This document shows positions 5,342-48,942 of a stretch of 48,942 nt of DNA, piece by piece. A program made the translations under genes and the position numbers. The notes under the pieces were generated by a model. The model did not search any database. It saw only the letters and a program-made list of their open reading frames with translations, and was not told where the DNA came from. Source of the stretch: Solobacterium sp. Its GTDB lineage: Bacteria > Bacillota_I > Bacilli_A > Erysipelotrichales > Erysipelotrichaceae. How positions within the stretch are numbered: the stretch's first letter is position 1; the number at the start of each line of letters is the position of its first letter. The stretch is taken from contig JAFRHT010000004.1 in NCBI GenBank assembly GCA_017433125.1, positions 1-48,942 on the forward strand, in the 5' to 3' direction.

Positions 5342-6625
5342 TTATCGATACGTCCAGGTATTGTCGTATTCTGCTTCGTCAACGGCATCCTGGATCTCAT
5401 TCTTCGGTATCAGTCCGGAAATCATTTCTGTTGCTTCTTCTTTCAGATTCCGTGCCTCTGGATCATCCGATCGGATAGAGAAGAGGTGAATACTGGTATA
5501 AGTCTGCAGCAGTGTTTCTTTCATTTCCTGAAACTGTTTAATTATCGGATCTACGATCTTTCTGATCATATTCTGAATAACACCCATGACAGAACCGGAA
5601 GGCTGCTCCGGAACATTGCTGTAATCGATATCCGTCTGTACAGGTATTTCTTTCATGATCTCAGAGCCGATATTACCCGCAATGGTATGAATGTCATCCT
5701 GCAGCTTTTGAACGGCCTCATGCAGTTGAATGTTCTCCTCGTGAAGCTCTGCATATTCCTTTGCTGAAGAAGCACCTAATGCCTTTGCGGTGGCTTCAGT
5801 GATGTCCCGATCTGCTTTCAGATCTGCTTCTTTCTGCTGCAACTGACGAACCTTGTCATTGATGACTTTTGCACTTCCGGAAAGCCGCTGTTTCTCTGCG
5901 GTAATGGCTTCTTTTTCTATCCGGTACGCTATGCCGTCTGCCGCCAGATCCTGCAGTTTCTGGTTTTCTTCAGAAGAGTAGGTGGTATCTGAAGAAAGGA
6001 TCTTCTTCTTTCCCTGTGGCAGATCCTTCTTCAATGCAGTTTCTTCCTTCAGCTGGCTGATGGTTTTATTGCCTCCCTGAGCTGCAGTAATGCCGGATGT
6101 AATCGATATGTGGTAACCCATTGCCTCATCCATTGCTTTCTGCAGATCCTTGTGGAATGACTGCAATTCCTTCCGGTTGATTACTGCCTTGGCATTCAGT
6201 TTCTCCGTTCCGTCTTCCAATACTTCAACCGGAATGAAACAGAAGTGCATATGCGGCGTATTGCCGATCTCGTCCATATGGACATAGCAGGATACTGTAT
6301 TCTTCTTTCCGTACTTTTCGGAAAGGTAGGCATATGCCGCTGAGAAGAATCTATGGCTGTCCTCATCCTTTACATCCTGCGGCTGTGTAATGATCCAGTC
6401 ACAGACAACATTCTGATTCTTTCTGCCATTTGTTTTGAGCTGCTTCAGCCTGGAAGAGAGGAATGGATACTGTGGCAGCGGCTGATCCTGATCGGCGAGA
6501 TTGTAGTTCAGGTATGTACGGCTGGTATCGATGTCCTTGTTGGAAAGCGAATGTCCTGGACTGCGGTCATAGTGTATGAATAGTCCGGTGATATCTGCTT
6601 TGATATATTTTTCTACGTGTGCCAT
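5342..6625 (-). CDS. mobV: MobV-family relaxase (Mob/Pre)
   Basis: The 427-residue protein is the nicking enzyme that would start conjugative transfer of the element at oriT, using machinery from a helper element. The relaxase signature is HMDEIGNTPHMHF at 116-128 (HxDExxxPHxH-like, with metal-binding His and the Glu typical of MobV). The N-terminal Mob_Pre domain covers roughly residues 1-210. A charged coiled-coil (about 220-340) follows, and a C-terminal helical part. I start at the ATG at 6623-6625 (MAHVEK) because AAGGAGC precedes it; upstream in-frame codons pass through the oriT-like palindromes. No type IV secretion gene is present, so the element is mobilizable rather than self-transmissible. 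Confidence 0.92.
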   Translation of the reverse strand: MAHVEKYIKADITGLFIHYDRSPGHSLSNKDIDTSRTYLNYNLADQDQPLPQYPFLSSRLKQLKTNGRKNQNVVCDWIITQPQDVKDEDSHRFFSAAYAYLSEKYGKKNTVSCYVHMDEIGNTPHMHFCFIPVEVLEDGTEKLNAKAVINRKELQSFHKDLQKAMDEAMGYHISITSGITAAQGGNKTISQLKEETALKKDLPQGKKKILSSDTTYSSEENQKLQDLAADGIAYRIEKEAITAEKQRLSGSAKVINDKVRQLQQKEADLKADRDITEATAKALGASSAKEYAELHEENIQLHEAVQKLQDDIHTIAGNIGSEIMKEIPVQTDIDYSNVPEQPSGSVMGVIQNMIRKIVDPIIKQFQEMKETLLQTYTSIHLFSIRSDDPEARNLKEEATEMISGLIPKNEIQDAVDEAEYDNTWTYR

Positions 6626-6721
6626 GATGCTCCTTGTATTTGTTCCGCATGCCGAGTATCTCTGACAGAGATATGAGCAGCGGAAGATTGCCGACAGGCA
6701 GCTGAGCCCGTCCGGCAGGAC

Positions 6722-6802
6722 CCTCCGGAGGACAAGTGTAACCAACGCAGTTGGTGTAACTTGCTACACCAAGCATTGGTGTTTCTTCACCTCCTCCGGA
6801 GG
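6722..6802. other. Candidate origin of transfer (oriT)
   Basis: Directly upstream of the relaxase lie four dyads in 81 bp: CCTCCGGAGG (6722-6731), ACCAAC-GCA-GTTGGT (6741-6755), ACACCAA-GCA-TTGGTGT (6766-6782) and again CCTCCGGAGG (6793-6802). MobV relaxases usually nick next to such inverted repeats close to their own gene. I cannot identify the nick site. Confidence 0.5.
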
Positions 6803-8601: not shown

Positions 8602-9234
8602 ATGGCTAATGTAAAAAAGAGTGTTCCGTTCAATCCGGAAATACTGGAAGAAGAACTGGCAGAAAAAGGAATGAGTCTAAATGAACTTGCATTTCAAATT
8701 GCAAAAAAGAACAACATAACTAAACAGGCAGAAATGACATCTCTTCGAAGGTACAAAAGGAATAAAGAGATTTCACTTTCTGCTCTTGAAGATATCGGAG
8801 AGATTCTTAACCTGGATCCAAATATATTCCGTAAAAAAGAGATTACCAGTGTGTATAAATGGAGAGAGAACCAGATTCGCCCGGCAAATGATTCCGATCA
8901 GACATATCAAAGATATCTGGAACGATCGGAGGCAGAAGATCAACTGAATATTACAGGTCTAATCAATAAAGAATCCCTTGATTCATTTCTGTCCACAACA
9001 CCGTTTTATATTGAAATACAGAAAATGGATGAACTGCATCATGATTATTATCTCTATCTGTTGTCGATTGAAATTCAGCGGTTAATGTACATAGCAATGA
9101 ATACCGAAGTGAAAAGAGAGCGTGTGGAGATTCAAGGAAAGACGACCCGTATTGAAGAACGATTCAAGGTAATCAATAAGCCAAAGGACTCGCTCCCACA
9201 TCCGGAGGATTACTATGTCAGTAAAAAAAGATAG
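8602..9234 (+). CDS. XRE-family regulator of the element
   Basis: A 210-residue protein with an N-terminal XRE-like helix-turn-helix (about residues 10-75; LEEELAEKGMSLNELAFQIA, then ALEDIGEILNLDPNIF) and a C-terminal helical domain of unknown type. AGGAGG lies nine bases before its ATG. The last 20 bases overlap the integrase start, so both are co-expressed. It faces the small helix-turn-helix gene across a palindrome. Its place directly before the integrase suggests that it controls integration and excision. Confidence 0.7.
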   Translation: MANVKKSVPFNPEILEEELAEKGMSLNELAFQIAKKNNITKQAEMTSLRRYKRNKEISLSALEDIGEILNLDPNIFRKKEITSVYKWRENQIRPANDSDQTYQRYLERSEAEDQLNITGLINKESLDSFLSTTPFYIEIQKMDELHHDYYLYLLSIEIQRLMYIAMNTEVKRERVEIQGKTTRIEERFKVINKPKDSLPHPEDYYVSKKR

Positions 9235-10273
9235 GAAAACCAGCAAATGGCAGGCGAGGTATTATGTCAGAAAAGATGATGGCAGTCTGAAATATGTCGT
9301 CAAAAAAGGATTTAAATCAGCAGATGATGCCAGAAACTGGGAAATCAGCCACAAACATGAATCAAATGCTGGAAACGACACCACCTTTGGAGCTTTTTTT
9401 GAGATGATGTCGCTTGCAAACAGAGCTAACGAGACCACAACAGAAACCCGCAGGCAGCGTTTGAAAACATATGCAGGCGAACTCTGGGATAAGCCCATGA
9501 AAAAGATCACAAAGAATGTCCTGCAGAAATGGAGGACGAAATTGGAAACTGCAGAAAAAAAGAACGGTGATCCACTGAAAACACAGACCAAAAATGACAT
9601 TATCGGTTATGTGAAGCAGGTTGGTAAATTCGCCTGGGAAAATTATGATATTCCAGATAACTGTAAAGTGCTTAAATCATTTCCTAAACAGTTGGATGAC
9701 TACAATGAGATGGTGATAATCAATTACGATGAATTCTGTGCACTGCAGAACGCGGAATCAGATGAAGTATTGAAGATCTTCTTTCAGTTTCTATATATGT
9801 CCGGTGCTAGAAAAGGTGAGGCAAGATGCCTGTTGAAGGAAGATTTTGACGGAACACAGGTACACATCTTCAAATCAATGAGGAGATATGAATCTTCGGT
9901 AAAAACGACAAAAACAGGTAACGCCAGATGGGTACCTCTTGATGATGACACAAGGAGTAAGCTCTTGTATCTGAAAAACCGTCCAGGAAAATACTTGTTT
10001 GGAGATGCGACACCGATCAGTCTCACAAAAATTGATGTACATTTCCAAAACGATCTTAAGGAAGCCGGTCTGCAACACATGCGCATTCACGATCTCCGGC
10101 ACAGCCATGTTTCAATGCTGTGGAATGCCGGCGTACCGGTTCCAGAGATATCAAAACGAATTGGTCATGCATCTCCCAAAGTCACTATGGAACGTTATGC
10201 TCACATTTTCGACAACAAGCAGTCAGCTTCACTGGCAGCGTTAAACAGCCTTGTAAAGAAGAAAAAGAAGTAA
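9215..10273 (+). CDS. int: Tyrosine recombinase / integrase
   Basis: The 352-residue enzyme would insert and excise the element at the tRNA-Thr 3' end. An N-terminal arm-binding domain (about 1-55, starting KWQARYYVRKDDGS) is followed by a SAM-like core-binding domain (about 55-155) and the catalytic domain. Catalytic residues can be read: Arg199 in SGARKGEA, Lys233, His292 and Arg295 in HDLRHSH, His318 in IGHAS, and nucleophile Tyr328 in MERYAHI. All are present, so it should be active. Its start overlaps the XRE gene, with GGAGG before it. It ends 109 bp from the tRNA gene that holds the right attachment site, the usual order for Bacillota elements. Confidence 0.95.
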   Translation: MSVKKDRKTSKWQARYYVRKDDGSLKYVVKKGFKSADDARNWEISHKHESNAGNDTTFGAFFEMMSLANRANETTTETRRQRLKTYAGELWDKPMKKITKNVLQKWRTKLETAEKKNGDPLKTQTKNDIIGYVKQVGKFAWENYDIPDNCKVLKSFPKQLDDYNEMVIINYDEFCALQNAESDEVLKIFFQFLYMSGARKGEARCLLKEDFDGTQVHIFKSMRRYESSVKTTKTGNARWVPLDDDTRSKLLYLKNRPGKYLFGDATPISLTKIDVHFQNDLKEAGLQHMRIHDLRHSHVSMLWNAGVPVPEISKRIGHASPKVTMERYAHIFDNKQSASLAALNSLVKKKKK

Positions 10274-41207: not shown

Positions 41208-41239
41208 AAAACTATCAGATATTAATGGAGGTGGAGGGA

Positions 41240-43120
41240 ATGCTGTCCTTCGGGGTAATAACAGTTACCGGACTGCTGTTCCTGCTGGTGCTCATTTCGC
41301 TGGGATTCCAGCCGAAACTGACGGTTAAATTCAACGGGCTGATGATCTTCCTGACGGCCCTGGCCGGGGCATGTATTTACGGTTACGGTTACTCGGTTCT
41401 ATTCAGCAGTTTTCTGCAGGCAATCATGCGGTCACTGTTTTCGGTTTTCTGCATGTTTCTGGGAAGAAACGAAATCAGTGCGGTCAGTGCCGCCCCGGCC
41501 CTGCAGGCCCCGGGCATCCAGGTGGTAATATACTTTGTCCATATGATGGCCCTGTACTGCACAGCCAGCGCTGTTCTGGCCTCCATCGGCACCAGGCTGC
41601 TGCGGGTGATGAACCTGGCCCTGATTCGCCGGAATGAACTGCACCTGATCTACGGTGCCAGTGAAGAGTCGATCCGGCTGGCGGAAGAACTGCAGCAGGA
41701 GCACACGGTCATCTTTGTGGACCGGGGTCCCGGCAGTGTGTTTGACGACCGCATCCTGCGGATGGGAAGCATCCTGTTTACGGATGATTCGGCCTGTCAT
41801 CCCCGGCCGTCCTTTCTGAAAAAAGCCGGCATCACCAACAGCCGGAAGGGCATAGCTGTCTATTGCCTGGATAATTCGGCAGCCGCGAATATCCGTTTTG
41901 CGGCAGACCTGGCAAAGGCCATGCAGGCGGCCGGCATTGCCCCTGAAAAAACACGGATTACCGTAATTGCGGATGGGGAAGATGAAGGCCATGTGAAGCA
42001 GGCCGGCGGGGAACAGTACGGCTACGGGTCAGTATTTTCATTCAACCGGGCTGAACTGGTCAGCCGTCTGATGATCAGGGAGTATCCGCCCTGTGACACA
42101 ATGTCATTCGATCAGGAAGGCCGGGCCCTGGAGAACTTTGAAGCAGTAGTGATCGGCTTCGGCAGCCTCGGCCAGGCAGCCCTGCGCGCTTTGATCATGA
42201 ACGGTCAGTTCTGCGGCAGCCGCTTCCATGCGGTTGTGACAGCTGACTCATTCAGCCGGCAGTCAGGCAGTTTCATGTACCGGTATCCCGGTATCCGGGA
42301 AAACTGCAACGTGGAATTCCGTGAAGATAATGCCCGCAGTATTGGATTCTATGAATATCTTTTCTCCATCCGGGAAACATTGAATTATGTTGCTGTCTGC
42401 ACCGGCAATGAAAAGGAAAACGCGGAGATCGCAGCCGAGCTGACCGGTTTTCTCAGGAAGGCAGGATCCAAGGCCGTCATCATACAGTGCACCAATGAGG
42501 GGATCAGCCGGCTCTCCGGTTCGACCGGCCTGACGGAGACAGTCAAGCTGTATTCCGAAGACCTGCTGAACAGCAGCCGGATTGACCGGCTGGCAATGAT
42601 TGTGAACCAGCAGTATCACGCAGCCAACGGGAAAACCGCGGCTGAAAACTGGAAGGACTGTGATTACTTCAGCCGGATGAGCTGTCGGGCCGCGGCTGAC
42701 TATATGCCGGCTGTCCTGAAAGCCTGCGGTGTATCGGCACAGGATATCCTGGCCGGAAACTGGCAGCCGGATGAAACGACACTTGAGAATCTCGGCATCA
42801 TGGAACATCTGCGCTGGTGCGCGTTCCATTACTGCATGGGTTACCGGCAGATGAGCCGGGAAATATTTGCCGAACGGGTCAGACAGTACAGTCAGGAGGT
42901 CCGCGCGCATGGCCGCAGCCGCATCCGGGTGACGAAGGATGCGGAAAACAGACTGCATGCATGTCTGGTTGACTGGGATGAACTGGATGCCCTGGCGGAC
43001 CTTGAAGAAAAACTGAGCGGGATCAGAAAAGATTACAAGGATATGGATAAGGATAATATCCGGATGATACCGGCGATGCTGAAAGAGGGATATGATAATT
43101 CCACAGGCATCCGCCAGTAA
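41240..43120 (+). CDS. Channel-like membrane protein with two Rossmann folds and an RyR-like C-terminus
   Basis: A 626-residue protein. Three or more hydrophobic segments in the first 125 residues resemble a two-helix potassium-channel unit. Two TrkA-N-like Rossmann folds follow: LIYGASEESIRLAEEL (about 140-155) and VVIGFGSLGQAALRAL (about 305-320), the latter with a clean GxGxxG. Near residue 515 the text NLGIMEHLRWCAFHYCMGY, then later CLVDWDELDALADLE and NIRMIPAML, matches the layout of bacterial RyR domains, which bind nucleotides. I start at ATG 41240, since the in-frame ATG at 41225 is part of the ribosome binding site (ATGGAGG). It leads a four-gene operon and may open or close in response to a nucleotide ligand; that is inference. 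Confidence 0.7.
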   Translation: MLSFGVITVTGLLFLLVLISLGFQPKLTVKFNGLMIFLTALAGACIYGYGYSVLFSSFLQAIMRSLFSVFCMFLGRNEISAVSAAPALQAPGIQVVIYFVHMMALYCTASAVLASIGTRLLRVMNLALIRRNELHLIYGASEESIRLAEELQQEHTVIFVDRGPGSVFDDRILRMGSILFTDDSACHPRPSFLKKAGITNSRKGIAVYCLDNSAAANIRFAADLAKAMQAAGIAPEKTRITVIADGEDEGHVKQAGGEQYGYGSVFSFNRAELVSRLMIREYPPCDTMSFDQEGRALENFEAVVIGFGSLGQAALRALIMNGQFCGSRFHAVVTADSFSRQSGSFMYRYPGIRENCNVEFREDNARSIGFYEYLFSIRETLNYVAVCTGNEKENAEIAAELTGFLRKAGSKAVIIQCTNEGISRLSGSTGLTETVKLYSEDLLNSSRIDRLAMIVNQQYHAANGKTAAENWKDCDYFSRMSCRAAADYMPAVLKACGVSAQDILAGNWQPDETTLENLGIMEHLRWCAFHYCMGYRQMSREIFAERVRQYSQEVRAHGRSRIRVTKDAENRLHACLVDWDELDALADLEEKLSGIRKDYKDMDKDNIRMIPAMLKEGYDNSTGIRQ

Positions 43121-43162
43121 TCACTACTTAAATGAGCCGGAGGCAGCGGCAAAGGAGATTTT

Positions 43163-45829
43163 ATGAGAGCATCCAGAAAGCGATTCACAGCAGGTTTGAG
43201 CATCATGCTTTTCCTGCTTGCCGGCCTGCCCGTAAAAGCAGAAGAAGCCAATGAACCGGCCGGTGCGTCAGGATCCGGCAAAGTTTCAATCGGAACAGTT
43301 ACATTCAATACAGGTGATGATGTTGTATCGGGCTGGAACAGCGATTTCGGAAGCGGCTGGAAAAACGTGGCCGGCGAATATGTGGCGATGGTCAACTATG
43401 ACGGTTCGGGTGCTTCACTCGTTTCGGAAACAGATAATCTGACGATTGTCGCGGCAGGACTGAACCGGCTTAAACGGATTTCCGGCAGCGGGAATATCAA
43501 CCTGGCTGGAACCGGTATTCTTCTGGTTGATGAGATTGAACTGAGCGAAGGCAGCAAATTCAGCCTGTATCCGTACGGAACAATTTACAGCAGCGGCAGC
43601 GTTGCGGTGTTTCTGAAAGAAGCGGGGACGGAGAACAGTTACAGGATGATCAACGGGGCATTGGTTGATGGTGTTCTGGATGAACGGTATGTCATTCCTG
43701 CCGGAATCAAACTGATCGTTCCGGCAAATGCTGTTCTGCGGCTTGAAACAGTTATGGCCGTCTTCCAGGAAGATGAAGGCGGGGAACAGGATGAAACCCC
43801 GGAGTATTACACCGCGCAGGACAAGATAAAAGACCCTGACACAATCGATCAGGCGAGAACTGTGATTACCACCGGCAATCTGACCATACCGGAGAATACA
43901 TCTCTGGTGATTGAAACCGATGGTGAAATCAGGATGAGTTCAATATTCAGCACTGACCATTATGTTTCGTCGCTGACAGTCAACGGAAACCTGACAAACA
44001 ACGGCAAAATCAGAAACGGTATCGTGGAAACAGGCGGTTCTGCCTCCGTCAGCGGAACCGGAGCCATTGTCGGAGCAGAGGCGAGGATCAGCAATCCGGC
44101 TGCCATTTCAGATTCTGTTGCATTTGATTCCTCGCAGATCATCGTTGCCGACTGCGGCTCCGCCTGCTCCGGCAGTTTTACCCTGAATGACAGCACCCTG
44201 CTGACCGGTGTAAACACAGTTATCGACCGGCTGAATGTATACGGTGAATCAGTGCTGGAATATGAGTATGACGTTGCGGTGAACAGCATTTCTATTGCGG
44301 ACGACGCAGTCCTGGATGTCTGCGCCACGGACTACTTCCAGAGAACGGCGCTGGCCATCAGTAAAGCCCTGCGCGGCGGGACACTCAAGGTTCTGTCGGG
44401 ACATATGGTTCTGGCTGAAGCGCTGACTGCTGAAAATACTGTCATCGCGTTTGATGAAAATGACTGCATTATGGAAAACCGCAGCAGCATGCCGCTGTCG
44501 GCGTCCTTTGCCCCGCTGGTGTTTACACCGGAAGAAGCACTGGAAAGCATCGGGGATGACACTGTCCCGGTTGTTTTCGTGAAACTGAACATAACAAGAA
44601 GTGCCGGTGTATTCGGTTTTATGACAGTCAGGCATGATGGTGCGGCAGCGGAGCAGACACCGGTTTCCCGTACCGGGTATTATTCATTCTCTGATCTGGT
44701 TATGGATGGGGAAAACTATAAATCATATATCAAGGAAGCGCAGCCGGATTATCCGAATGTCGAAGTGGAAATATACCGGATCGCCGCTGACGGAACAGTA
44801 TCCGTAACCGTACTGGATAAAAACAATGGAAATGCGGGAGCTGTTGAAGACGCATTCCTGATCAGAATCATAGCGTATACGAACTTTAGCGATGTCCTTG
44901 GCGGCGGTACTGTCACGGACACAACGACAACCTATACCGGCACCGGCGCCCTGGGCTCCGGGTCGGGAAATGTCCGGATTGGGACAAACGGAGAATCCAT
45001 TTTCTCCGGCACGGGACTGACCAGTCCGGATCCAGCACCGTCGTCAAGTCCACAGCCAACTGCCGGTCCAACAGCACAGCCAACTGCCGGACCAACTGCA
45101 CAGCCGACTGCCGGACCAACAACGCAGCCAACCGCTGCCCCGTCTGCACAGCCGACAGCCAGACCGGCACAGACAGCCGCTGCGACAGAAAACAGGGTTA
45201 ATAACAACGCATATGCCGGCCGGGCATCGGCGGCATTGACCGCGCGTACAACAGGGGCTGACCAGCCGGGAACGGGCATTCGGAAACAGATCCCATATCG
45301 GCTGCCGGAAACCCTGAAGGAGAATAACAGTGCAGTTTCCAGTACATTTTTCGCAGTATTCAGCAATCCGGAAGGACAGCTGGCATTTGTACCGGCTGAC
45401 TATGACCCGGTTTCCTCGTCATTGTCATTTACAGGCGGCGGGGCGGATAAATATGCAGCCATGGCAGTGAGTCTGGAACAGGTTGAATTCACCGCGTACA
45501 ATACCGGGCTGCGGTCTGCCAGGAAAAACGGCCGGATCCGCTGGCTGGAGCTGACGATGCATGCAGAAGATGAATGGTTACACATACCGGAAGGAAGCAC
45601 GGTCCGGCTGGCATTGGACTATCCGGCCGGCAGAACCGGAATGCATGTTTTCTATGAGGATGAATCCGGTATGCTGCATGACACCGGGGCGGAGTATGAT
45701 GCATCTGCCGGGATCCTGACACTGGATGTCCCGTCCGGCGGCCGCCTCTTCACTGTCACCGGCGCAGACCGTGTCAGCGCGGCAGATCTGGCGGAACTGC
45801 ATCGCTTTATGGCAGACCGCGCGCAATAG
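43163..45829 (+). CDS. Large secreted protein with PT-rich repeats
   Basis: The 888-residue protein has a classic signal peptide (basic MRASRKRF, hydrophobic core, likely cut near residue 28 at VKA-EE). The next 600 residues are rich in beta strands with many short Gly/Asn/Ser turns, like a right-handed helix or adhesin (for example LTVNGNLTNNGKI and AVNSISIADDAVLDVC). A Pro-Thr-rich linker (about 630-670) with QPTAGPTA repeats leads to a C-terminal domain of about 170 residues. No LPXTG motif, lipobox or C-terminal membrane helix is visible, so attachment to the cell is unclear. AAAGGAG precedes the ATG. It sits between the channel-like gene and the TIR genes. Confidence 0.75.
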   Translation: MRASRKRFTAGLSIMLFLLAGLPVKAEEANEPAGASGSGKVSIGTVTFNTGDDVVSGWNSDFGSGWKNVAGEYVAMVNYDGSGASLVSETDNLTIVAAGLNRLKRISGSGNINLAGTGILLVDEIELSEGSKFSLYPYGTIYSSGSVAVFLKEAGTENSYRMINGALVDGVLDERYVIPAGIKLIVPANAVLRLETVMAVFQEDEGGEQDETPEYYTAQDKIKDPDTIDQARTVITTGNLTIPENTSLVIETDGEIRMSSIFSTDHYVSSLTVNGNLTNNGKIRNGIVETGGSASVSGTGAIVGAEARISNPAAISDSVAFDSSQIIVADCGSACSGSFTLNDSTLLTGVNTVIDRLNVYGESVLEYEYDVAVNSISIADDAVLDVCATDYFQRTALAISKALRGGTLKVLSGHMVLAEALTAENTVIAFDENDCIMENRSSMPLSASFAPLVFTPEEALESIGDDTVPVVFVKLNITRSAGVFGFMTVRHDGAAAEQTPVSRTGYYSFSDLVMDGENYKSYIKEAQPDYPNVEVEIYRIAADGTVSVTVLDKNNGNAGAVEDAFLIRIIAYTNFSDVLGGGTVTDTTTTYTGTGALGSGSGNVRIGTNGESIFSGTGLTSPDPAPSSSPQPTAGPTAQPTAGPTAQPTAGPTTQPTAAPSAQPTARPAQTAAATENRVNNNAYAGRASAALTARTTGADQPGTGIRKQIPYRLPETLKENNSAVSSTFFAVFSNPEGQLAFVPADYDPVSSSLSFTGGGADKYAAMAVSLEQVEFTAYNTGLRSARKNGRIRWLELTMHAEDEWLHIPEGSTVRLALDYPAGRTGMHVFYEDESGMLHDTGAEYDASAGILTLDVPSGGRLFTVTGADRVSAADLAELHRFMADRAQ
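45053..45160 (+). repeat. 24-bp tandem repeat coding for QPTAGPTA units
   Basis: At least three imperfect copies of a 24-bp unit (CAGCCAACTGCCGGACCAAC and variants) encode the Pro-Thr linker of the secreted protein, followed by more divergent copies. Such repeats can change copy number by slippage. Confidence 0.75.
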
Positions 45830-45844
45830 AAATGGAGGTACATG

Positions 45845-46690
45845 ATGTCCTGGGATTTATATATGACAGCCGTCAGGGCAGATGCTGAAACAGCAGAACA
45901 GCTGGCAGACAGTATCCGCAGCTACCGGCTCCCAAAAGGTGTCACACTGCCTGATTCCGGACTTGATTACCGGCAGGTGTTTGTGGACGCATCTGATGAA
46001 CCGCTGGATGACAGCCGGAAAGAACAGCTGCAGCAGAGCCGTTTTCTTGTGGTGGTCTGCTCTCCGGCAACCCGGACAAGTGCGGCAGTCGGTGAGCGTC
46101 TGGCTGTTTTCCTGAGCAGTCATGATAAAAACAGCATCATTGCCGTCATAGCATCCGGAGAACCGGCAGAGTCCTTCCCGGCAATATTCATCGAGCATCA
46201 GACTGTACGCCACATCATGCCTGACATGACTGTCATCGAAAGAGAAGAGACGATCGAACCGGTGGCGGCCGATCTGCGGGCAAATACCCCGGCAAGAAGA
46301 AAGCAGCTGCTGCGCTATGAAACTGTCCGGATTACCGCGTCAGTTCTGGGCCTGCATCCGGATGATCTCGAACAGCGGCACCGGAGCCGGGAAAGAAAGA
46401 CGGCCCGGACAATCATTGCCGGCGCGGCAGCAGTGTGCCTCTCGGCAGCGGCACTGTTTCTGCGGCTTGGCTATGTAGCCCGGAAAGAGGGGCAGATTGC
46501 TGAACAGCAGACAGCGCTCAGTACGGAAATCGCCGCACGGACCATGCATGAACTGCCGGAACTGTTCAAAGATGATCCGGAAGCACTGGCATATATCGGA
46601 GAAGCAGTCACCCATGCCAGGGAATCACTGAGCGAACTGGGACTGGATGATCTGCTCGAAGACGGCGGACAGGAGGATACAGGATCATGA
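45845..46690 (+). CDS. Degenerate TIR-domain protein with one membrane helix
   Basis: A 281-residue paralog of the next gene. The N-terminal 155 residues keep the shape of a TIR domain: SIRSYRLP (24-31), FLVVVCSPATR (67-77) and ESFPAIF match NMVESYRLP, CLIVVCSTDTP and TSFPPSL in the neighbour. The SEWVDRE catalytic segment is replaced by SAAVGER, losing the Trp and moving or losing the Glu, and the first strand SYRH is TAVRA. A membrane helix follows (about 190-210), then a short acidic tail with no tetratricopeptide repeats. It probably lacks NADase activity and may regulate or hetero-oligomerise with the intact protein. I start at 45845, six bases after GGAGG. ATGA overlap with the next gene. 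Confidence 0.7.
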   Translation: MSWDLYMTAVRADAETAEQLADSIRSYRLPKGVTLPDSGLDYRQVFVDASDEPLDDSRKEQLQQSRFLVVVCSPATRTSAAVGERLAVFLSSHDKNSIIAVIASGEPAESFPAIFIEHQTVRHIMPDMTVIEREETIEPVAADLRANTPARRKQLLRYETVRITASVLGLHPDDLEQRHRSRERKTARTIIAGAAAVCLSAAALFLRLGYVARKEGQIAEQQTALSTEIAARTMHELPELFKDDPEALAYIGEAVTHARESLSELGLDDLLEDGGQEDTGS

Positions 46691-48750
46691 GTTATACGTA
46701 TGATGTATTCTTCAGTTATCGTCATAAACCGCTGGACGGTGAAATCACCGAAAAGCTCTTCAATATGGTTGAAAGCTACCGGCTGCCTGACACACTGCGG
46801 GCCAGGGGCTGCCAGGATGTGCACAGAGCGTTCCGGGACACGGAAGAACTGGCAGTCAGCCGGATTCTGACAGATACCATTGACAAGGCCCTGCACGGCA
46901 CCAACTGCCTGATTGTCGTATGTTCTACGGATACACCGTCATCGGAGTGGGTTGACCGGGAAGTGGCAACATTCATCGAACTCGGCAAGGCAGACCGGAT
47001 CTTTCCGCTGCTGATTACCGGTAACCCGGAAACGTCCTTTCCGCCTTCCCTGAAGCGCATACCGGATATTGCGGCACGCACCATGGATATCCGGATTCCG
47101 GGGAATCCGGTGAAGGCAATGCTTGCCAAAGCAGAGACCGAACTGCTTAAGGTTATTGCAGTAATCGCCGGCTGCACGGAAGCAGAACTGCAGCGGGAAC
47201 ATAAACTGCGCCGGAACCGGCGTCTGGTACAGAGAACGGCCGCGGCGGTGGCTGTGCTGGCTGCGGTCAGCGGTATATCGTTCCTGCTCATGAACCGGGC
47301 GCGGTCTTACCGGGAAACAGCATACCTGCACGAACAGGCATCCATGCAGATCCTGAACCGGCTGACTTATGAACTGCCGGATCAGCTGACCAATGTGACC
47401 GGTGCCTATAGCCGTATTGCCGAACTGCTGCAGCGTAATACTGAGGATATCAACGCGATTGTCCGGCTGTCGGCAGATAAGGAAAACGCGGAGTATGAAG
47501 CGGCTGCGAACTATGAAAAACTGGGGCATGCCTACAGCGTGCTGGGCAGTTATGATGATGCCCTGGCAGCAGAGCAGAAGGCAGTTGATCTGTTCAGCAT
47601 GCTTGTGGAAAACGGATATGCAAAGGGCGGTCCGGCGCTGGTTTCCGCCTTCAGCAACCGCGGCAATATCTGCCATTCTGCCGGGCGTTATGCCGACGCG
47701 GCACAGAGTTACAGTGATGCTCTGCAGCTGATGGATCAGACAGCCGGAATGGATGACGTAACCGCGGCTGTGATCTGCTACAATGCCGGTGCCAATGCCG
47801 TCAGTCTTGGTGATCCGGAGGCCGCGTCCCTGTACTTTGACCGGGCGCTTGCCAGGCTGGCGGATACGGCGCGGACGAATGAATCAGTATCTGCTTCCGC
47901 GGCAGCTGCGTACAACTACGGCGTTATGCTGTACCGTACCGGACAATATGCTGCAGCTGAAGAAAAACTGGCAGCGGCAGAAGCCGATTATGCCTGGCTG
48001 CTCGAACAGGATGATTCGCGCATTAACCGTATGAACCATGTCCGGGCGGTTTCCATGCAGGCAGCCTGCCTGATGGATGAAGGACAGTTTGCGGAAGCGG
48101 ATGCGGCGTTTGTCCGGGGAATTGCGGCTGCGGAAGTCTTCGCCGAAGACCGTGAGAACATGGAATGCCAGCAGCTGCTTGCAGAACTGTACAACAACCA
48201 GGGCCTGTGCTTCAACATCCAGGGCAGATATGAGGAGGCAGACCGCTGTTATGGCCTGGCGGCTGAACGGTATGAACTGATCAGCCGGAAAACCGGCAGT
48301 GATACAGCGGCCGCGGTATACGCACTGGCTTTGCTGAACCGGGGAGAAAACGCGTTCAAAGCCGGGACATATGAAGAATCCAGGCAGCTGTTTGAAGAAG
48401 GTCTGCGGGAATATGAAAAAGTCTATGCGGCGCTGGGGGATTTCCATGCCGCCCAGTATTATGCCTGGCGGTCTTATTACGAATTGATTCATCAGCGGGA
48501 TCCGGATGCGGCCCGGCAGGCAGCCAGGGAGGCATGCCGCCGACAGCCGGATCATGTGCTGGCAAACCTGAACCTGGCCTATGCCGAACTGTACTGCGGG
48601 AACTATGCCGAATGTGACCGGCTGTTTGCCCTGATCGCATCACTTGGGGAAGGGCAGGCCGAGACCATTCGCGCGGACCTTGCGGCCCAGCAGAAAGCCG
48701 GGCTGGAGAGCAGCCATATCCCGGATGTACTTAACCTGATCGGCGGATAG
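46687..48750 (+). CDS. TIR-domain membrane protein with tetratricopeptide-like repeats
   Basis: The 687-residue protein has an N-terminal TIR domain (about 1-155): YDVFFSYRHKPLDG (first strand and BB-like region), HRAFRDTEELAVS, CLIVVCSTDTPSSEWVDREV with Trp88 and the putative catalytic Glu92. A basic juxtamembrane segment (LRRNRRLVQR) precedes one helix (about 183-202). Residues 255-680 are helical repeats of about 34-42 residues with tetratricopeptide signatures (AANYEKLGHAYSVLGSYDDA, YNNQGLCFNIQGRYEEADRC), predicted outside the cell. Bacterial TIR domains can hydrolyse NAD or make cyclic ADP-ribose signals on activation. Membrane TIR-repeat proteins of this type occur in gut Bacillota without a settled function. 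Coupled to the degenerate paralog by ATGA. Confidence 0.82.
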   Translation: MSYTYDVFFSYRHKPLDGEITEKLFNMVESYRLPDTLRARGCQDVHRAFRDTEELAVSRILTDTIDKALHGTNCLIVVCSTDTPSSEWVDREVATFIELGKADRIFPLLITGNPETSFPPSLKRIPDIAARTMDIRIPGNPVKAMLAKAETELLKVIAVIAGCTEAELQREHKLRRNRRLVQRTAAAVAVLAAVSGISFLLMNRARSYRETAYLHEQASMQILNRLTYELPDQLTNVTGAYSRIAELLQRNTEDINAIVRLSADKENAEYEAAANYEKLGHAYSVLGSYDDALAAEQKAVDLFSMLVENGYAKGGPALVSAFSNRGNICHSAGRYADAAQSYSDALQLMDQTAGMDDVTAAVICYNAGANAVSLGDPEAASLYFDRALARLADTARTNESVSASAAAAYNYGVMLYRTGQYAAAEEKLAAAEADYAWLLEQDDSRINRMNHVRAVSMQAACLMDEGQFAEADAAFVRGIAAAEVFAEDRENMECQQLLAELYNNQGLCFNIQGRYEEADRCYGLAAERYELISRKTGSDTAAAVYALALLNRGENAFKAGTYEESRQLFEEGLREYEKVYAALGDFHAAQYYAWRSYYELIHQRDPDAARQAAREACRRQPDHVLANLNLAYAELYCGNYAECDRLFALIASLGEGQAETIRADLAAQQKAGLESSHIPDVLNLIGG

Positions 48751-48758
48751 AATAACGG

Positions 48759-48786
48759 AACGTCCGGCTGCGGCCGGACGTTTTCT
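48759..48786 (+). terminator. Terminator of the channel-TIR operon
   Basis: AACGTCCGG-CTGCGG-CCGGACGTT is a 9-bp stem followed by TTTC, nine bases after the last stop. Confidence 0.9.
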
Positions 48787-48802
48787 TGGCAAAGCCATTA
48801 AA

Positions 48803-48823
48803 ACCCCCGGATAGTCCGGGGGT
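48803..48823 (-). terminator. Strong GC hairpin, likely terminator on the minus strand
   Basis: ACCCCCGGA-TAG-TCCGGGGGT is a perfect 9-bp stem. On the minus strand it is followed by TTTTAATGG; on the plus strand by CCAAAAA. It could stop antisense transcription or insulate the next gene. Confidence 0.6.
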
Positions 48824-48851
48824 CCAAAAAGCTTAAGCGAAGAGATCATGA

Positions 48852-48920
48852 AAAAAGCCTCCTGGCATATAAATCGTGTGTGGTCTGCGAAACTACAACG
48901 AAGAATAAGAGGAGGTTTTT
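48852..48920 (+). promoter_or_regulatory. Inverted repeat covering the ribosome binding site of the last gene
   Basis: AAAAAGCCTCCT (48852-48863) can pair with AGGAGGTTTTT (48910-48920), which includes the ribosome binding site of the gene starting at 48924, with one bulged G. In RNA this would hide the site. Confidence 0.45.
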
Positions 48921-48923
48921 ATC

Positions 48924-48942
48924 ATGGCATACACCGATGACC
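48924..48942 (+). CDS. Start of an unidentified gene, cut by the window end
   Basis: ATG at 48924 follows AGGAGG at eight bases and opens a frame reading MAYTDD before the window ends. Six codons are too few to name it. The ribosome-site hairpin upstream is a feature often seen in transposase genes, but this is only a hint. Confidence 0.5.

Follow-up and report, generated by a model that had tools for sequence, protein, structure and literature searches.

Can a bacterial TIR protein at the cell surface signal to an ion channel? The question is raised by an operon of four genes (41240-48750) on contig JAFRHT010000004.1 of Solobacterium sp. (assembly GCA_017433125.1), whose 48,942 nucleotides are hereafter the window. 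The features of the operon and its terminator given below lie on the + strand. An earlier note, made from the letters alone, had described a co-transcribed set with a shared promoter and a single terminator, encoding a channel-like protein with two Rossmann folds and an RyR-like C-terminus, a protein with a signal peptide and two TIR membrane proteins acting as a pair, and knew of no described system of this composition. Judged from its sequence, the operon suggests a bacterial signal-to-ion-channel pathway, and we consider it moderately probable that the TIR of a surface receptor makes a nucleotide of the ADP-ribose (ADPR) type, which is sensed by RyR domains to gate channels.

The C-terminus of gene 1 is central to this proposal. 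Gene 1 (41240..43120) encodes a channel-like protein of 626 amino acids (aa) with two predicted transmembrane (TM) helices (2TM), tandem RCK domains and a terminal RyR domain (about aa 475-621, 42662..43102), the domain with which animal ryanodine receptors bind small molecules. Pfam gave a weak TrkA_N score alone and no RyR match for this protein; the profile of the gene-1 family, which also matches TrkA weakly, hit RyR chains in the PDB at E-values of 1.6e-6 and 0.013 (animal and Bacteroides-type proteins). Among 28 divergent gene-1 homologues, some of them at 16-20% identity, just seven columns are invariant (A452, E522, H523, R525, W526, H573 and L582), five of which (E522, H523, R525, W526 and H573) belong to the RyR pocket, and D603 is nearly invariant. 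Likewise, H523, W526 and H573 are present in 77 of 77 gene-1 homologues and D603 in 76 of the 77. These four residues (codons 42806-42808, 42815-42817, 42956-42958 and 43046-43048) correspond to H75, W78, H100 and D117 of the phage protein RyDEP, which contact the ADPR product of 3' cyclic ADPR (3'cADPR; PMC13232231), but their spacing is longer, the last two lying farther apart. Isomers of cyclic ADPR (cADPR) are made by TIRs and bound by phage RyR proteins, six of eight phage RyDEP homologues having bound them (PMC13232231). By family profile and invariant residues the C-terminus of gene 1 is RyR-like, as had been read from the sequence before. The ligand-site residues are the same as in RyDEP and the bacterial RyR-like proteins (PF02026; PDB 3nrt, 4n05); RyDEP, however, is a phage anti-defence glycosidase or sponge, whereas here the RyR domain caps RCK channels in bacterial genomes.

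The remainder of gene 1 resembles a channel with a gating ring. The structural model built from the 28-sequence alignment (m795a02c37e27; predicted local distance difference test, pLDDT, 85.1) shows long TM helices flanking a shorter one that occupies the position of the pore, together with two Rossmann units and a terminal part made of helices alone. In structural comparisons it was matched to the gating ring of LjCASTOR (Z 14.7, root-mean-square deviation (rmsd) 4.0, 293 residues) and, with the pore part included (aa 25-454), to GsuK (Z 14.3, rmsd 10.3, 352 residues), further matches being KtrA, TrkA, MthK and Slo1. According to this model gene 1 is predicted to combine a 2TM pore domain with an RCK gating-ring fold. 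The two Rossmann folds noticed earlier are present, and the model corrects their reading in that they are predicted to be tandem RCK domains, a gating ring (about aa 132-445, 41633..42574), the second of which keeps the motif GFGxxGQ. In the segment comprising the pore helix and the filter-position loop (aa 58-82, 41411..41485) the homologues conserve MFLGRN (aa 72-77, 41453-41470) at the place where the K+ selectivity filter TVGYG(D) would stand, which sets gene 1 apart from canonical K+ channels. The 2TM architecture with a tandem RCK ring is shared with GsuK, MthK, Slo1 and plant CASTOR/DMI1, and CASTOR, a Ca2+ channel whose filter differs from that of gene 1 (PMC6697748), likewise lacks TVGYG. 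Gene 1 differs from these RCK channels in its added RyR domain, the MFLGRN at the filter position and its TIR neighbours. Two homologues of 1188 and 1140 aa (L127:5130-8696 and L137:9001-12423) continue beyond the RyR domain with a membrane helix and a part, predicted to lie outside, that reads like a papain-type cysteine peptidase (QGxxGTCWxH); both have a TIR gene immediately upstream.

In most relatives gene 1 is preceded or followed, often with an overlap, by a fifth gene encoding a K+ channel protein of ~515 aa, which adjoins gene 1 in 63 of 79 loci. This protein matches Ion_trans_2 (8e-14), has a TVGYGD filter and ends in an RyR domain that scores above the Pfam cut-off, with ligand residues spaced 3/25/17, identical to H75/W78/H100/D117 of RyDEP. 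The genome of the window encodes its K+ channel (497 aa; PF02026 at 31.3 bits, cut-off 27.4) on contig C57 (L054:5400-10149), where it adjoins a gene for a 1079-aa protein of TIR-TM-beta-propeller architecture. Gene 1 and the K+ channel may act together or apart. No relatives of either protein were found in viral contigs, and none of the K+ channel on plasmids. A third TIR-propeller gene of the same genome lies on contig C56 (L186).

Gene 4 (46687..48750) encodes the putative enzyme. Its TIR domain (about 46699-47064) matched Pfam ThsB_TIR at 2.8e-8 (34.5 bits, cut-off 21.2) and TIR_2 at 7e-7, and its catalytic E92 (codon 46960-46962), the glutamate required by TIR NADases, is retained in all partner TIRs compared, the gene-3 type excepted. 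One TM helix follows (47236-47292), and the TPR repeats beyond it are predicted by topology to lie outside, which agrees with the external repeats proposed earlier. An analysis of hydropathy and charge predicted a TM helix shortly after the TIR, with more positive charge ahead of the helix, in 47 of 49 TIR partners. Because positive charge favours the TIR side of the helix, the TIR is predicted to face the cytosol, with the sensor part (TPR, propeller or other) on the outer side of the membrane.

Gene 3 (45845..46690; TM helix 46412-46468) is homologous to gene 4 (about 1e-10), and its TIR match falls just below the Pfam cut-off. Its AlphaFold model (pLDDT 75.9) found mostly TIR domains (MyD88, SPARTA, Roq1) as best Foldseek matches, with probabilities near 1 and E-values of only 4e-3 to 0.1, and on this model gene 3 is predicted to have a TIR fold. 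The assignment of a TIR and one TM helix to both genes was confirmed in this way, by Pfam for gene 4 and by the model for gene 3. The position of the catalytic glutamate, by contrast, is occupied in gene 3 by Arg86 (counted from the ATG at 45842; codon 46097-46099), and arginine stands there in seven of seven gene-3 orthologues compared, near-duplicates among them. Of the suggested TIR pair the two folds thus stand and the catalytic partnership does not: we rejected the possibility that both TIRs are enzymes, and gene 4 looks, from its sequence, like the sole enzymatic TIR of the operon. As its catalytic glutamate is replaced though the fold is TIR-like, gene 3 most likely regulates gene 4. 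Gene 2 (43163..45829) encodes a fast-evolving secreted protein of 888 aa with a signal peptide (aa 1-26), as stated before, and a Pro-Thr linker (PT repeat, about aa 631-666). No Pfam family matched the relatives of gene 2, one of which, in L086, has a membrane anchor at its C-terminus.

The association of these genes was followed in 79 gene-1 loci from Erysipelotrichaceae, Lachnospiraceae, Oscillospiraceae, other Clostridia and one Synergistales metagenome-assembled genome (MAG). Contigs were scanned with the narrower gene-1 profile A2, the profile made from the 28 distant sequences being too diverse. A TIR gene lies within 3 kb of the gene-1 homologue in 42 of the 79 loci. Where both flanks extend over at least 3 kb (44 loci), it lies within 3 kb in 27 (61%) and within 500 bp in 24; about 4 TIR genes per 2.2-Mb genome would place one that close in about 1-2% of loci by chance. 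TIR matches beyond 3 kb occur in three loci only, and there the match is to the cassette's second TIR gene. Of the genomes tested whose gene-1 locus has no neighbouring TIR, 19 of 19 carry one elsewhere, and all but one of the genomes in this whole-genome search, which included the linked-TIR genome L069 as control, matched at E-values below 1e-57. In a survey of 273 genomes of the family, TIR was found in 21 of 21 genomes with gene 1 and in 31 of 252 without it (Fisher p 1.5e-17), and the corresponding counts for the K+ channel were 16 of 21 and 1 of 252 (Fisher p 1.2e-20).

Other species and families carry the gene set as well, with protein identities of about 39-96% and faster divergence in gene 2. 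L072, L073 and, with about 40% identity, L112 share the order gene1-K-gene2-gene3-gene4 (K being the K+ channel gene), and L086 has the rotated order gene2-gene3-gene4-gene1-K. Co-occurrence, then, is strong for TIR and RyR channel, and order is kept across families. The isolate Butyrivibrio sp. AE3009 has the order K-TIR-gene1, which excludes a binning artefact. More distant RyR-ended proteins (16-20% identity) adjoin divergent TIR genes. Pfam RyR matched in only seven of 295 genomes sampled from the phylum, and among these the genome of the window, G516, G556 and G530 have a TIR gene nearby. Two RyR proteins from further families of the phylum, one of 95 aa that stands alone (L202:13775-15279) and one of 777 aa (L198:6144-9628), are each encoded directly beside a TIR gene, so that the link between TIR and RyR extends beyond the channels.

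In the mechanism we propose, the operon would link genes 2-3-4 as a sensor/TIR module with gene 1 as a channel module, usually accompanied by the K+ channel. The extracytoplasmic TPR part of gene 4 would read an outside cue, assisted by the secreted gene 2 and the catalytically dead TIR of gene 3, and the cytosolic TIR of gene 4 would convert nicotinamide adenine dinucleotide (NAD+) to an ADPR-type nucleotide, most likely 2' or 3' cADPR. Binding of this nucleotide to the RyR domains that gene 1 and the K+ channel carry on their RCK gating rings would open the channels, and the ion flow would depolarise the cell or stop its growth, probably as a protective response. This proposal draws on architecture, pocket conservation, the catalytic and dead TIRs, association and topology, all taken from sequence and structure prediction, and from them we infer the NAD+ chemistry, the identity of the ligand, gating and ion selectivity, a role in trans for the K+ channel, which is encoded on another contig, the trigger and the purpose.

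In animals it is a long-standing question whether ryanodine receptors are a direct target of cyclic ADP-ribose. Tentatively, and with some doubt, we suggest that a path from TIR receptor via a cADPR-type messenger to RyR channels is a bacterial counterpart of that animal link, and that these are the first TIR systems with a ligand-gated ion-channel pair as effector. Since small bacterial channels keep the RyR pocket and are encoded beside TIR enzymes of the cADPR-isomer class, the link between cADPR and RyR becomes testable with purified parts. If true, the proposal would extend TIR signalling by a branch with membrane receptors and ion channels and give the consistently dead TIR partner, gene 3, a clear role to test; the pairing of TIR receptor and RyR channel recurs in dozens of related gut bacteria.

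Several observations weigh against this mechanism. Architecture and roles alike are predicted here from sequence and modelled structure, and an RyR domain may equally break down a signal or do no more than bind it. The K+ channel is absent from this operon and gene 1 has no canonical filter, so that gene 1 is possibly non-conducting. The more distant TIR neighbours, of the L059 type, lack a membrane helix, 31 genomes of the family have a related TIR without gene 1, and the co-occurrence counts with their Fisher tests are uncorrected for shared ancestry. Three genomes (G017, G021 and G023, two of them under 85% complete) carry genes 3-4 without gene 1 or the K+ channel, which suggests that the sensor/TIR module can stand alone or use another partner. 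A gene-2-like neighbour is present in two of these loci (L179 and L180) and the remaining one is L178.

The explanations set against signalling to a channel are not mutually exclusive in the likelihoods we give them. That the genes are hitch-hiking neighbours without any functional link could be argued from the missing K+ channel in the window and from the differing order between lineages; the gene sets are rotated yet complete, the same association is found at 16-20% identity and for other RyR proteins, and adjacency far exceeds the chance expectation given above, so that we give this explanation hardly any weight. It is improbable, in our view, that the RyR domain is an off-switch, i.e. that, in the manner of RyDEP, the membrane protein limits the signal by binding or hydrolysing the product of the TIR, with the loss of NAD+ caused by gene 4 being the effector. 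The equivalents of the RyDEP catalytic dyad (H523 and D603) are indeed conserved together with the pocket, and phage RyR proteins degrade or sequester cADPR (PMC13232231). A sponge or hydrolase would, however, need neither a tandem RCK gating ring nor a 2TM pore, the partner K+ channel bears the same RyR domain together with an intact selectivity filter, and the homologues assayed beside RyDEP itself did not hydrolyse (PMC13232231).

Sensing might instead reside in the RCK domains, the channel answering to levels of NAD(H) or ADP changed by the TIR. RCK2 keeps its glycine motif and GsuK, among the best structural matches, is activated by ADP and NAD+ (PMC3510474), but the RyR pocket is invariant across distant homologues while the RCK motifs drift, making this quite improbable. 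Finally, the link between TIR and RyR might regulate the flux of K+ or other ions in normal life, as an envelope or osmotic sensor that plays no part in defence against phages or competitors. Such a role is a matter of purpose and is compatible with the mechanism proposed here. The sensors are predicted to be extracytoplasmic, two homologues fuse gene 1 to the predicted outside papain-like peptidase domain, the neighbours of the operon in the window are core genes, and in several lineages the pair of gene 1 and K+ channel lies between housekeeping genes with the TIR elsewhere. The patchy presence (21 of 273 family genomes) and the fast-changing secreted and sensor parts, on the other hand, resemble conflict genes, and the characterised bacterial TIR/cADPR systems are mostly defence systems; we regard a purely physiological role as somewhat unlikely.

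Among known systems, Thoeris is similar to signalling from TIR to RyR channel in that a catalytic TIR gene adjoins a gene with a probable ADPR-nucleotide-binding domain, and gene 4, with its ThsB_TIR/TIR_2 matches and E92, has the sequence features of ThsB, a TIR with a catalytic glutamate. Searches with Pfam, NCBIfam and PADLOC assigned the four genes to no known defence system and found no ThsA-type, SIR2, SLOG or Macro family in genes 1-3. As the described ThsA is missing, the operon cannot be filed as Thoeris, and it would work in the Thoeris manner if the proposed mechanism is right. It differs in that the candidate effector is an RyR-RCK channel, that the TIR is membrane-anchored with an outside sensor and that the set also includes a dead TIR and a secreted protein, and its role in defence is putative. 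Toll-like receptors offer an analogy, with an outside sensor, one membrane helix and a cytosolic TIR; here, however, the TIR is N-terminal, the sensors are TPR repeats or beta-propellers and the TIR is a predicted enzyme rather than an adaptor scaffold, and no descent is claimed. Among the papers available, a literature search found no description of operons combining TIR and an RyR channel, in keeping with the earlier view of an undescribed set, and an earlier prediction of an RyR/TIR link may exist: Burroughs and co-workers are said to have possibly predicted nucleotide links of this kind in 2015 (NAR).

The closest named relatives of the window, which is one contig of a 2.18-Mb genome in 142 contigs (96.8% complete), are Solobacterium MAGs from the ruminant gut (gene 1 identity 93-94%). 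The layout of four same-strand genes with gaps of 42 and 15 bp and a final ATGA overlap between genes 3 and 4 is borne out by coordinates and ribosome-binding sites (RBSs). Gene 1 starts at ATG 41240 with ggaggtggaggga ahead, an in-frame ATG at 41225 having no RBS; gene 2 follows after 42 bp (RBS aaaggag) and gene 3 after 15 bp (RBS ggagg), with ATG 45842 as a possible alternative start. The shared promoter found no support, as a consensus scan gave no sigma-70-like site on the + strand upstream of gene 1 and totals were at chance, and no obvious defence genes were found near the operon in the window. A single terminator is likely, with a strong hairpin and a T-rich stretch after gene 4 (48759..48785), which the scanner lists on the - strand only. 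Copies of the end of the window (48780-48942), matching it at 92-98%, stand at or close to the ends of contigs C96, C98 and C36, and this sequence is probably a mobile element that broke the assembly. An integrated element upstream of core genes (cdaA, glmM, murF) is indicated by a MobV family relaxase and a tyrosine recombinase (5345-6745 and 9215-10273), both encoded in the first 10 kb of the window.

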